From the NCBI GenBank assembly GCA_020052375.1, contig JAGVPG010000021.1, positions 81,969-129,810 on the forward strand: DNA of 47,842 bases, read 5' to 3'. Position 1 is the first letter of the stretch. Each line of letters begins with the position of its first letter. The stretch comes from Actinomycetota bacterium. GTDB taxonomy: Bacteria > Actinomycetota > JAHEXW01 > JAGVPG01. This document shows positions 3,907 to 46,443 of this stretch, piece after piece. A model generated the notes under the pieces. The model searched no databases and was not told the origin of the DNA. It saw only the letters and a list, made by a program, of their open reading frames with translations. The position numbers were made by a program, and so were the translations under genes.

Positions 3907-4526
3907 CTGGATTCCTCGCTATCACTCGGAATGACATTCTTAGGGCCGTCTTCAAAGAGGATACTCCAGTAATGCGTAAAGTATTCGACACCGCTGGCAA
4001 TAGTCAATGTAATGGCTATCGCGAGGAGCGTCCATTCCAGGCCTGTTTGAAGCCTGGTCCAGGGCAATCTTAACATAAGAGAAGATATGGCGATGATCTG
4101 CGATATCGTTTTAAATTTTCCCAGCCTGCTGGCGGGGATGACAATATGCTTGACAGCCGCTGTCATCCTGAATCCCATAACGGCGAACTCCCTACCGATG
4201 ATAACCATGCCGATCCAAGCCGATAGCCTGCCGAGACCGATAAGACTGATAAGAGCGGCCGATATAAGGAGTTTATCAGCCAGAGGGTCAAGCAACTGAC
4301 CGACTACTGTTATCTCGCCTCTCGATCGAGCCAGATAACCGTCGAGTGTATCCGTCAAAGCAGCCACTATGAATATGATACCGGCGATCGCAATGCCCCA
4401 CTGGATATTGATGGAAAGAGCGCTTAGAACGCCCTTGCTAAGCAGAAAGGCCATAAAGACGGGTATCAGTAGTATCCTGATTATCGTGATCGTGTTGGCG
4501 ATACCGAGCCGCTGATTGGATCTCAT
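3903..4526 (-). CDS. pgsA: CDP-diacylglycerol--glycerol-3-phosphate 3-phosphatidyltransferase
   Basis: PgsA makes phosphatidylglycerol phosphate at the inner face of the membrane. The CDP-alcohol phosphotransferase signature is complete: D59, D62, G63, A66-R67, G76, D80 and D84. Several hydrophobic spans fit the polytopic family fold, and 207 residues is slightly longer than usual. The extra length is the C-terminal tail NVIPSDSEESR, which is encoded by a dispersed repeat rather than by conserved pgsA sequence. The gene starts at an ATGA overlap with rodZ and ends at an ATGA overlap with cinA. Confidence 0.94.
   Translation of the reverse strand: MRSNQRLGIANTITIIRILLIPVFMAFLLSKGVLSALSINIQWGIAIAGIIFIVAALTDTLDGYLARSRGEITVVGQLLDPLADKLLISAALISLIGLGRLSAWIGMVIIGREFAVMGFRMTAAVKHIVIPASRLGKFKTISQIIAISSLMLRLPWTRLQTGLEWTLLAIAITLTIASGVEYFTHYWSILFEDGPKNVIPSDSEESR
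3908..3935 (-). repeat. Dispersed repeat (GTCATTCCGAGTGATAGCGA) inside the 3' end of pgsA
   Basis: On the minus strand this segment reads GTCATTCCGAGTGATAGCGA followed by GGAATCCA. It matches the common bacterial dispersed repeat GTCATTCCGAG(C/T)GATAGCGAGGAATC as I remember it. It encodes the last residues of PgsA, VIPSDSEESR. I see no other copy in this window. Confidence 0.6.
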
Positions 4527-21986: not shown

Positions 21987-22353
21987 CATCCAGGGAAAAG
22001 ATGTGAGTTTTTCTAGTCGACTTTAGGACTATGTCAGTGTGTCCGGGGTTTTGAGCCATAAACGTCCACACGTCGTACGCATTCGATGAGTCGGAGGGCA
22101 TGGGGTCTATGATCCTCTCGGAATCTACGAACAGTACGTTCTCGATATCAAGCCGCTTGACAAGTTTCCATGCGGTACCGTCTTCTTTGTTGCAGTCCAG
22201 GACGACCTTGAACCTTCTTCCAGAATGCACCTTGATCTGCTGGACCTCGGCGGCCTGCCCTGTCGGCTTGGCGCCACACCCCGGATTAGACAACAAGGTT
22301 GCCAGTATCAGGATCATCCATACGGCTTTCTTAATCAGTCTTTGATCTCGCAT
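21976..22353 (-). CDS. Small exported chagasin-like (inhibitor I42 type) protein
   Basis: From the ATG at 22351-22353 the product is 125 residues with a basic start and a hydrophobic signal segment ending at SNPGC. It could be a lipoprotein, although the lipobox is poor at -3. The mature part is beta-rich and contains WTFMAQNPGHTDIVL, matching the W-x-F-x-A-x-x-P-G segment of chagasin-type cysteine protease inhibitors, and GTAWKL in place of the usual TGYxW loop. Assignment is therefore tentative. The reading frame is also open from upstream starts at 22371 and 22386. It overlaps the glycosyltransferase end by 23 bp. Confidence 0.65.
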   Translation of the reverse strand: MRDQRLIKKAVWMILILATLLSNPGCGAKPTGQAAEVQQIKVHSGRRFKVVLDCNKEDGTAWKLVKRLDIENVLFVDSERIIDPMPSDSSNAYDVWTFMAQNPGHTDIVLKSTRKTHIFSLDVVD

Positions 22354-22999
22354 ATCTGTGCTTGATGACATCCTTATACATATCAAGGCGGCTTTTCATG
22401 CCTTTTATCTTGCCGATCTTTTCTTCCTTCATGACTTGAGTAACGCCTTCGAACTCGACCTCGATCACCTTAGCCTTAGACCTTCTGGCATACGTAGTGA
22501 TGATAGTCTCGACTCCGAATCTGGAGCTTGAGAACTCCGGTACCCGGTCAAGAAAAGTCCTTCTTATAGCTCTTTGGCTGTTCAAGATCGGCGCGATCCG
22601 CTGGGAGAGGTTCGTGCTCAAGCGTCCTTCCGTAAATCTGGCGACGGACATCTCGATCTCTTCCGTCTCTATCAAGGGGCTTATCAGGCGGTCTATGTGA
22701 CCGGGCTTTAGTCCCACCAGATCGGCGTCGATAAACAATAATATGTCCGCATCGGTCGAATCGGCACCCTTTCGCATCGCAGCGCCTTTTCCTTTGTTGC
22801 TTTCCATACGTATGACTTTTACATGGTGTTTCGAAGCTGCCGACGCGGTTTCGTCTTCTGATCCGTCGTCAACGACTATTATCTCATCTATATGGTCGAC
22901 CTTAACCAGAACGTCAAGCACCGCTCCGATACGAGGCCCTTCATTATACGCGGGTACGATCACCGCTATTTTATGGTCTGACTTCGACTCACGACTCAC
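22331..22999 (-). CDS. Family 2 glycosyltransferase
   Basis: This is a 222-residue GT-A fold glycosyltransferase. IVPAYNEGPRIG (13-24), VVDDGSEDET (42-51) and the metal-binding D91-A-D93 are visible, with NKGKGAAMRKG between them. Its basic C-terminus lacks membrane spans, so it is probably cytoplasmic or peripheral. The acceptor is unknown; dolichol-phosphate-type and glucosyl-phosphoglycerate-type enzymes share these motifs. The start is unusual: the GTG at 22997-22999 is the third copy of a GTGAGTC heptamer array lying just after the proS stop. The gene leads the small cluster replacing rimP between proS and nusA. Confidence 0.85.
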   Translation of the reverse strand: MSRESKSDHKIAVIVPAYNEGPRIGAVLDVLVKVDHIDEIIVVDDGSEDETASAASKHHVKVIRMESNKGKGAAMRKGADSTDADILLFIDADLVGLKPGHIDRLISPLIETEEIEMSVARFTEGRLSTNLSQRIAPILNSQRAIRRTFLDRVPEFSSSRFGVETIITTYARRSKAKVIEVEFEGVTQVMKEEKIGKIKGMKSRLDMYKDVIKHRYARSKTD

Positions 23000-23013
23000 G
23001 ACTCACGACTCAC
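22986..23013 (-). repeat. Heptamer array, 4 x GTGAGTC
   Basis: Four exact tandem copies of GTGAGTC (coding strand) begin 3 nt after the proS stop codon (23017-23019). The last two copies encode the first residues of the glycosyltransferase and supply its GTG start. Two other four-copy arrays of related heptamers occur at 29424-29451 and 46416-46443. Confidence 0.85.
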
Positions 23014-23016
23014 TTT

Positions 23017-24465
23017 CTAGTATGCTCTCGCAAAATACGCTCTTACTCCTGGCTTCTTGCAGACCAGGCAGGGACCGGAGCTCTGTTCATCGTCGAACGG
23101 GATGCATCTTATCGTCGTCTTCGTTTCCTGTTTAACTTTCGCCTCGCACGCGGCATCCTCGCACCAATGTGAATCGAATATACCCCGTTCCCGCTCGAGC
23201 ATCTCATTCATCTCTTCAACGGATTTGACCTTGTATGTATGCTTAATCCTGAAGTCGACTGCCCTTTCGTATAGATCCCGCTGGATATCTCCTAGAACCT
23301 TTGATATCTTATCTTCCACTTCACCCCTAGGCACGAACATCTTCTCCTTCGTATCCCTTCTAACCAACACTACCTGGCCTTTATCAAGATCTTTGGGTCC
23401 TATTTCTATGCGTACAGGTACTCCTCGCAGCTCATGCTCGTTGAACTTCCATCCGGGACGATATTCATCCCGCAGATCGGCTTCCACCCGGCATAGTTTT
23501 GTCAGTGATTCACAGAGTTCGTTTACGGCTGTCCCTACCCTATCCTTTGTCCGGTCGTCCCATATGGGTACAATAACTACTTGTACGGGAGCTATCGTGG
23601 GCGGCAGGATCAAACCGGCATCGTCGCCGTGCATCATGACGATCCCGCCGATCAAGCGGGTCGAGACACCCCATGATGTCTGCCAGACATATTTTTCTTT
23701 TTCATCCTTATCCAGGAACTTTATATCGAAAGCCTTTGCGAAGTGCTGTCCCAGATTGTGAGAAGTTCCTGCTTGAAGAGCCTTGCCGTCGCTCATCAAG
23801 GCCTCGATTGCATACGTGTGAAGCGCTCCGGCGAAGCGTTCGGATTCCGATTTGCGCCCGACCATTACGGGCATAGCCAGGTATTCTTCGGCAAAATCCC
23901 TATACATGAATAACATCCTAAGTACTTCTTCCTCTGACTCTTCATATGTCGCATGCGCCGTATGGCCTTCCTGCCATAGGAATTCGGTCGTCCTTAAGAA
24001 AAGACGGGTGACCATCTCCCAGCGAAGTATGTTGGCCCACTGGTTGATAAGGACCGGCAGGTCTCGCCAAGAACGGATCCATTTCGAATACATGTGGCAG
24101 ATCATGGCCTCCGAAGTAGGTCTTATGGCAAGCCGTTCCTCAAGTTGGTCGTGGCCGCCTTGCGTCACCCAGGCGACTTCCGGGGCGAATCCCTCAACGT
24201 GCTCCGCTTCCTTCCTCAAGAAGCTCTCGGGGATCAAAAGCGGAAAATACGCGTTCTTGTGTCCGGTCTCCTTTATCTTCCGGTCCAGGTTCTCCTTAAG
24301 GTTCTCCCACAGTGAAAAACCATATGGCATTATGACCATACATCCCTTGACCGGCGCGTAGTCCGCTAGTTTTGCCATGCGTATGACATCCGTATACCAG
24401 CGAGGCATGTTCTCGCTTTTCTTCGTAAGTTTCTCAGGCATAGGTTCTTTGAACTCGTCGTTCAC
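23017..24465 (-). CDS. proS: Prolyl-tRNA synthetase, archaeal/eukaryotic-like (type 3) form
   Basis: This class II synthetase charges tRNA-Pro. At 482 residues it has no editing insertion and shows the eukaryote/archaea-like architecture. The N-terminal catalytic core includes VKGCMVIMPYG (motif 1 region), AIRPTSE and WANILRWE (motif 2), and SWGVSTRLIGG (motif 3). The anticodon-binding domain follows. The C-terminal zinc-type extension has CEDAACE, CLVCKK and the final tyrosine (ARAY). It overlaps ispG by 4 bp. The position before nusA is standard for Actinobacteria. Confidence 0.95.
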   Translation of the reverse strand: MNDEFKEPMPEKLTKKSENMPRWYTDVIRMAKLADYAPVKGCMVIMPYGFSLWENLKENLDRKIKETGHKNAYFPLLIPESFLRKEAEHVEGFAPEVAWVTQGGHDQLEERLAIRPTSEAMICHMYSKWIRSWRDLPVLINQWANILRWEMVTRLFLRTTEFLWQEGHTAHATYEESEEEVLRMLFMYRDFAEEYLAMPVMVGRKSESERFAGALHTYAIEALMSDGKALQAGTSHNLGQHFAKAFDIKFLDKDEKEKYVWQTSWGVSTRLIGGIVMMHGDDAGLILPPTIAPVQVVIVPIWDDRTKDRVGTAVNELCESLTKLCRVEADLRDEYRPGWKFNEHELRGVPVRIEIGPKDLDKGQVVLVRRDTKEKMFVPRGEVEDKISKVLGDIQRDLYERAVDFRIKHTYKVKSVEEMNEMLERERGIFDSHWCEDAACEAKVKQETKTTIRCIPFDDEQSSGPCLVCKKPGVRAYFARAY

Positions 24466-29393: not shown

Positions 29394-29423
29394 TTTAAGC
29401 TCCTGTCAATCCATATACTATCG

Positions 29424-29451
29424 ACTCACGAATCACCACTCACGACTCACT
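29424..29451 (-). repeat. Heptamer array, 4 copies (GTGAGTC, GTGAGTG, GTGATTC, GTGAGTC)
   Basis: Four tandem heptamers on the coding strand begin 6 nt after the frr stop (29458-29460). The middle two copies differ by one base each. Unit size, copy number, orientation and position just past a stop codon match the arrays at 22986-23013 and 46416-46443. Confidence 0.8.
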
Positions 29452-40393: not shown

Positions 40394-40431
40394 AAAAAAA
40401 GCCGTTTCCAGAGAAGGAAAGCGGCTTTTTT
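40394..40431 (-). terminator. Rho-independent terminator of the TPP riboswitch
   Basis: On the minus strand AAAAAAGCCG, a bulged C and TTTCC pair with GGAAA and CGGCTTTTTT around a TTCTCT loop, followed by a T run. It lies between the aptamer and the thiM start, so TPP binding should favour premature termination. Confidence 0.85.
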
Positions 40432-40442
40432 CTCTGACTTAT

Positions 40443-40541
40443 ATTCTTCCTCCGCTGGAATTACCCAGTTCAGGTTCTAACGGTCGTCCGGTTTAAGCCG
40501 GACCTCTCAGCCGCCAAGTCTATAAGCGGCTCCCGCTTTTT
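40443..40541 (-). ncRNA. TPP (THI-box) riboswitch
   Basis: The minus strand carries the conserved TPP aptamer elements in order. These are CTGAGA (40505-40510), a P3 hairpin GTCCGG-CTTAAA-CCGGAC, and CCTGAACTGGGTAATTCCAG with GCGGAGGAAG (40446-40474) closing P4, P5 and P1. It is directly upstream of the intrinsic terminator and thiM, the standard arrangement for transcriptional control of thiamine genes. All five thi genes and possibly the three following genes would be regulated. Confidence 0.95.
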
Positions 40542-40564
40542 GATCTTACACCTATCTTACCACA

Positions 40565-46415: not shown

Positions 46416-46443
46416 CGTTCACTGTTCACTGTTCACCGTTCAC
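46416..46443 (-). repeat. Heptamer array, 4 copies (GTGAACG, GTGAACA x2, GTGAACG)
   Basis: Four tandem heptamers begin at the yjbQ stop codon, whose TGA is part of the first copy, and run toward the macrodomain gene. Unit length, copy number, orientation and GTGA core match the arrays at 22986-23013 and 29424-29451, although the last three bases differ. Confidence 0.85.

Follow-up and report, generated by a model that had tools for sequence, protein, structure and literature searches.

The four perfect GTGAGTC heptamers that follow the prolyl-tRNA synthetase gene proS in this Actinomycetota genome are probably an unpaired copy of a genome-wide, usually four-unit GTGA(GT/AC)N family located at gene ends, a pattern that fits a repeat which disperses or grows locally better than it fits a dedicated expression switch. 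Short arrays of some four heptamers follow equal orientation rules in unrelated bacteria, and the set found here is compact and includes arrays that apparently hold the starts of the housekeeping genes gyrA, trpA and tig, so that the effect of such arrays on translation and the manner of their spread become testable questions.

The array between proS and the glycosyltransferase gene

The window, which is the whole stretch of 47,842 nucleotides that was analysed, carries the array on its minus strand, where the order is ...GCATACTAG (proS stop), AAA, four copies of GTGAGTC and then GAAGTCAGACCATAAAATAGCG... (Table 1). The TAG stop of proS occupies 23019-23017, and TRF reports a period of 7 with 100% matches over 22985-23013, which together with the sequence confirms the original prediction of four perfect copies beginning 3 nt past that stop. 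Three such arrays had been counted in the window, and the other two are indeed present, one at the frr-uppS junction and one at the end of a UPF0047 gene. The open reading frame that begins in copy 3 contains a family-2 glycosyltransferase (GT2) domain (Pfam PF00535, E 2e-24). In the GTGA of each unit a start (GTG) overlaps a stop (TGA); the array frames hold mini-ORFs that read MSRES and then stop, the forward strand is stopped in all three frames, and by frame analysis the GTGA of copy 3 overlaps the TGA that ends the mini-ORF opening at copy 1. An Rfam scan of the window returned a single match, a TPP riboswitch (40429-40546, minus strand).

Table 1. Features at the heptamer arrays of the window
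Feature	Position	Strand	Basis or context
Heptamer array (GTGAGTC)x4	22986-23013	minus	Sequence; TRF; window count of GTGANNNGTGANNNGTGA
proS, prolyl-tRNA synthetase	23017-24465	minus	Pfam tRNA-synt_2b, HGTP_anticodon, ProRS-C_1; TAG stop 3 nt ahead of array
GT2 from the GTG of copy 3 (predicted start), 222 aa, N-terminus MSRESKSDHKIAVIVPAYNE	22331-22999	minus	Pfam PF00535; proS synteny in G001, G002, G006
Predicted start GTG, copy 3 (penultimate copy)	22997-22999	minus	Frame analysis; predicted anti-SD duplex
Predicted SD region for copy 3, TAGAAAGTGAGTCGTGA	23003-23019	minus	Duplex with 16S tail GAUCACCUCCUUUCU; prediction only
Second array, GTGAGTC GTGAGTG GTGATTC GTGAGTC	29423-29450	minus	7 nt past frr stop, 29 nt ahead of uppS ATG
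Third array, GTGAACG GTGAACA GTGAACA GTGAACG	46416-46443	minus	Gives UPF0047 gene its stop; 19 nt ahead of Macro-domain ATG

A genome-wide family and its rules of position

Roughly 50 short degenerate GTGARYN arrays, with the consensus GTGA(GT/AC)N, are present in the 1.64-Mb genome, a draft in 35 contigs. The pattern GTGANNNGTGANNNGTGA (three tandem GTGA cores at period 7) has 6 matches in the window, where dinucleotide shuffles predict 0.01, and 76 genome-wide; GTGARYNGTGARYN has 118 matches genome-wide and the reversed control has 0, so that the further arrays expected by the original prediction do exist. The array statistics cover 382,870 bases around arrays, of which 84% are coding when genes are called with a simple coding model. 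The units seen most often are GTGAGTC (46), GTGAACA (40), GTGAGTA (22) and GTGAACG (12), and arrays of four units are the most frequent (32 of 57). Scanning by period yields 25 arrays of period 7 but 0-2 for periods 4-6, 8-13 and 15, the signal at period 14 following from that at 7. The expansion is sporadic: of 199 genomes of the phylum, 8 contain any GTGARY triple, and these triples are numerous in just two, this genome (61) and G094 (35). No array was found at the frr-uppS junction of G001, G002 or G006; the relatives compared are order-level, with a 16S identity of about 90%, other members of the phylum having about 84% or less.

The arrays obey marked rules of position and orientation. 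Twenty-five sense arrays start between -20 and +15 nt from the end of a same-strand upstream gene, whereas antisense arrays near stops number one within 15 nt and one more at 16 nt (25 sense vs 2 antisense, p 6e-6). Part of this bias is trivial, because the units contain TGA and a sense array inserted ahead of a stop itself ends the frame; the non-trivial subset, consisting of arrays wholly 0-15 nt past a stop, comprises about 9 sense arrays and 1 antisense. Six arrays lie inside genes, one of them (L047) in a duplicated piece of a gene, and every one is antisense. Only this orientation is free of stops: since 7 is not a multiple of 3, stops and GTG codons fall in all sense frames and the reverse strand is open. 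The peptides that the intragenic arrays add to phosphoglucomutase, GpmI, MnmA and HypF are of the DSRLTTHDS type, and the array loops of all four are indel sites relative to PDB chains; those of gpmI and mnmA are also indel sites relative to relatives, the GpmI loop exceeding that of G001 and G006 by 4-9 residues, and MnmA being compared with G003 and PDB chains. The phosphoglucomutase gene (L046:3156-4610) and a truncated duplicate (L047:3961-4446), about 21 kb apart on one contig, have an identical internal array. Arrays next to tRNA genes were also seen.

The likeliest account of this distribution is a dispersing or locally growing repeat that survives only where coding sequence stays intact, with the surviving arrays occasionally capturing start and stop codons. 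A filter by stop codons alone cannot be the whole explanation, since tandem GGGAATC has no stop codons by inspection, yet the GGGANTN repeats of Xanthomonas obey an identical position rule (PMC4692102). Arrays appear to supply the predicted starts of trpA, gyrA, yggS and tig, each of which begins in the last or the penultimate unit of its array and has an N-terminus that fits the family profile; for TsaD and the Macro-domain gene, a start just downstream of the array is equally likely.

Other heptamer arrays of about four units were observed as well, with the units AGCAATA, TTTCTCG, CAAGCTA and GGAAAAC/GGAAAAG (L241:1020-1060, L042:2030-2063, L044:7287-7316, L057:4663-4689). A hairpin-like sequence, GTAGC(C/A)GCCGACCTTYAGGTCGGC, is repeated 3' of several GTGAACA arrays (L032, L050, L051; L241:1070-1095), and may be a terminator common to them or another dispersed repeat.

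The same arrays are found in other phyla. An exact (GTGAGTC)x3 scan of the genomes of other species found at least 118 stretches, and the matches listed belong to Bacteroidota, Chloroflexota, Planctomycetota, Acidobacteriota, Pseudomonadota, Cyanobacteriota, Cloacimonadota, Spirochaetota, Omnitrophota and others, some of these genomes having hundreds of GTGA heptamer triples. With ORFs picked by length only, four units is again the mode among the matches listed (52 of 138 arrays); in the same set, 20 of the 23 arrays 0-30 nt past a stop are sense and 3 antisense, arrays inside ORFs are antisense in 25 of 25, and pairs of arrays are convergent in 17 cases and divergent in none. In several of these stretches, convergent GTGA arrays bracket apparent palindromes or terminator-like hairpins (L127:3280-3404 and 4063-4181, L098:6350-6467, L157:4768-4898, L173:7442-7521).

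Pairing, spacing and the glycosyltransferase start

Seven head-to-head (convergent) pairs of arrays and one divergent neighbour pair are present in this genome, and the convergent ones form strong hairpins when folded (z -4.9 to -7.6 vs shuffles). It is conceivable, though on balance unlikely, that the focal array is the remnant arm of a MITE- or REPIN-like mobile hairpin, of which the full form would be two convergent arrays around a core of 40-120 nt, and single arrays would be half-elements. The convergent pairs, here and among the matches listed from other genomes, point to such an element, as do a core motif, GTRCTTTGAAAGYRCGGATC...CGATTTACCC, common to several copies in this genome, the repeated extension of GTGAGT-type arrays by a 3' GGG (10 of 22), and the presence of two Y1-type transposase genes; but the stronger Y1 gene lies between CGGACGTAAGTCCG palindromes of its own and not between heptamers, the cores differ from genome to genome, and most arrays are unpaired. 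The focal array is among the unpaired ones; it has no secondary structure (z -0.44 vs shuffles) and terminal inverted repeats are absent there.

Intergenic hairpins with convergent heptamer arms were located at L041:4465-4571, L041:7015-7146, L045:6801-6904, L049:4417-4511, L053:4700-4811 and L055:4390-4560; several convergent-arm hairpins share the core GTGCTTTGAAAGCACGGATCC ... CGATTTACCC, and some adjoin tRNA genes. Two contigs open with a nearly identical hairpin element (L056:1-160 and L057:1-160), which suggests that this element broke the assembly. A Y1 (IS200-type) transposase gene with CGGACGTAAGTCCG palindromes on its flanks lies at L241:1400-1950. An origin of the arrays by a Y1/RAYT transposase was considered and is not favoured: the genome has two Y1 genes, but the heptamers do not match the ends that were inspected; no dispersal machinery for the heptamer arrays was found in this genome.

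The original prediction held that a change in copy number would alter the spacing from proS to the glycosyltransferase gene in steps of 7 nt. This part stands, and is refined by frame analysis: with two or more copies the in-frame GTG is always in the penultimate copy, so that gain or loss of units leaves the start codon and the protein unchanged and shifts only the distance from the proS stop to the GT2 start, which is 3, 10, 17 or 24 nt for 2, 3, 4 or 5 copies. Reinitiation in E. coli and Haloferax is reduced by 40-80% near 14 nt and is almost abolished at about 20-38 nt (PMC10666635); by this distance dependence, the present 17 nt would couple weakly. By analogy with those organisms, spacings of 3-24 nt would span the coupling-sensitive range, and tuning by copy number is plausible. 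A heritable variation of glycosyltransferase level, generated by slipped-strand gain or loss of units and transmitted through spacing and coupling, is nevertheless a doubtful explanation of the array: it accords with the four perfect copies and with spacings that keep the start while covering the steep part of the reinitiation range, but copy number is narrow around four at unrelated loci and genomes, unlike that of typical contingency loci, arrays adjoin housekeeping genes (gyrA, trpA, tig, frr-uppS), a study of analogous arrays in Xanthomonas argued against a role in phase variation (PMC4692102), and the general position rules of the family need no tuning function.

Ribosomes finishing proS may partly reinitiate, either 17 nt away or via the MSRES mini-ORF. 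In a hypothetical relay, translation restarted at copy 1 would yield MSRES and end at the TGA that overlaps the GTG of copy 3. A more speculative proposal, to which we attach a low probability, is that GTGA mini-arrays are a self-limiting dispersing element of many phyla, whose overlapping start and stop would let arrays land at operon junctions and take over the initiation and termination of their neighbours; the relay from proS to GT2 could then advance in steps of two units (from copy 1 to copy 3), such that an even number of copies would couple and an odd number would not.

That copy 3 supplies the GT2 start, as was originally predicted, is very likely, judging from comparison with relatives and from predicted ribosome binding. 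The proS and GT2 genes are adjacent in G001, G002 and G006, and the proS of G001 is 70% identical with an identical TAG stop. In G001 and G002, GT2 begins with ATG AAA (MKAAII...) and the array is absent; the aligned codons here are CAT AAA, not ATG AAA, and the frame runs upstream to the copy-3 GTG. The GT2 frame of G006 is also open upstream, to a GTGAGC right after the proS stop. Pairing of the -20 to -3 region with the tail of the genome's own 16S rRNA gives a predicted anti-SD duplex of -11.7 kcal/mol for copy 3, at a spacing that is non-canonical, compared with a median of -8.3 kcal/mol for 323 genes. The sole alternative in-frame GTG, at 22963, was picked by a simple coding-potential caller, and would make the array an untranslated spacer upstream of GT2; this is quite improbable, as such a start would have no SD (predicted duplex -1.6 kcal/mol) and would drop residues that align with the N-terminus of the relatives' proteins (MKAAIIIPAYNE). 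In the reading favoured here, the array would have arrived or grown after the proS stop, GT2 would have lost its ancestral ATG, and the start would have passed to the GTG in the penultimate copy, which is read through an SD-like upstream stretch of its own (copies 1-2 plus AGAAAG).

Relation to known heptamer repeats

The GTGA family is a variant of a known, poorly understood kind of repeat, represented by the Xanthomonas/Nostoc heptamers and by TAACTGA, with which it shares its architecture but not its unit; a literature search for the GTGARYN unit itself found no report. The GGGAATC and GGGGA(C/T)T heptamers of Xanthomonas and Nostoc mostly have four units, lie in sense orientation within 50 bp of stops or antisense upstream of ORFs, and form many convergent pairs (PMC4692102). 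The GTGA arrays resemble them in having a period of exactly 7 with a degenerate unit, a four-unit mode, a sense orientation near the upstream stop, and convergent pairs. They differ in that the GTGARYN unit is not G-rich and GTGAGTC has no G-run, so that a G-quadruplex is not expected and the arrays are not filed with quadruplex repeats, and in that GTGA units hold an overlapping start and stop and arrays here supply stop codons and predicted start codons. The tandem heptanucleotides of Calothrix, as cited in PMC4692102, are likewise seven-base tandem units in a bacterial chromosome.

The TAACTGA direct repeats of Beggiatoaceae, Cyanobacteria and Bacteroidetes have stops in all frames and a scattered distribution (PMC4679880). 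Like them, the GTGA arrays are few-unit heptamer arrays near gene junctions, are stopped in three forward frames, and occur sporadically over distant phyla; the GTGARYN unit is different and degenerate, and whereas TAACTGA mostly lies just ahead of start codons (PMC4679880), GTGA arrays border the preceding stop and in some cases include the start. By analogy with the proposal for TAACTGA in Beggiatoaceae, the array might be a binding site for a post-transcriptional regulator of the S1, Csp or CsrA type, which would suit its position between a stop and a downstream start and its conserved unit core (PMC4679880) but is very unlikely, given that the downstream genes share no function and that arrays also occur within genes and beside tRNA genes.

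Paired GTGA arrays are like REPIN and MITE sequences in forming an inverted-repeat hairpin between genes, and unlike them in that the arms are tandem heptamers, the Y1 transposase gene inspected has palindromic ends unrelated to these arms, and the focal array lacks a partner. Rickettsia palindromic elements are short repeats tolerated within conserved protein genes. GTGA arrays are similarly tolerated within such genes, but in a single orientation and with a tandem heptamer as the unit. To these known kinds of repeat, the GTGA family adds an overlapping start and stop in each unit and the capture of start codons, at starts that are predicted.
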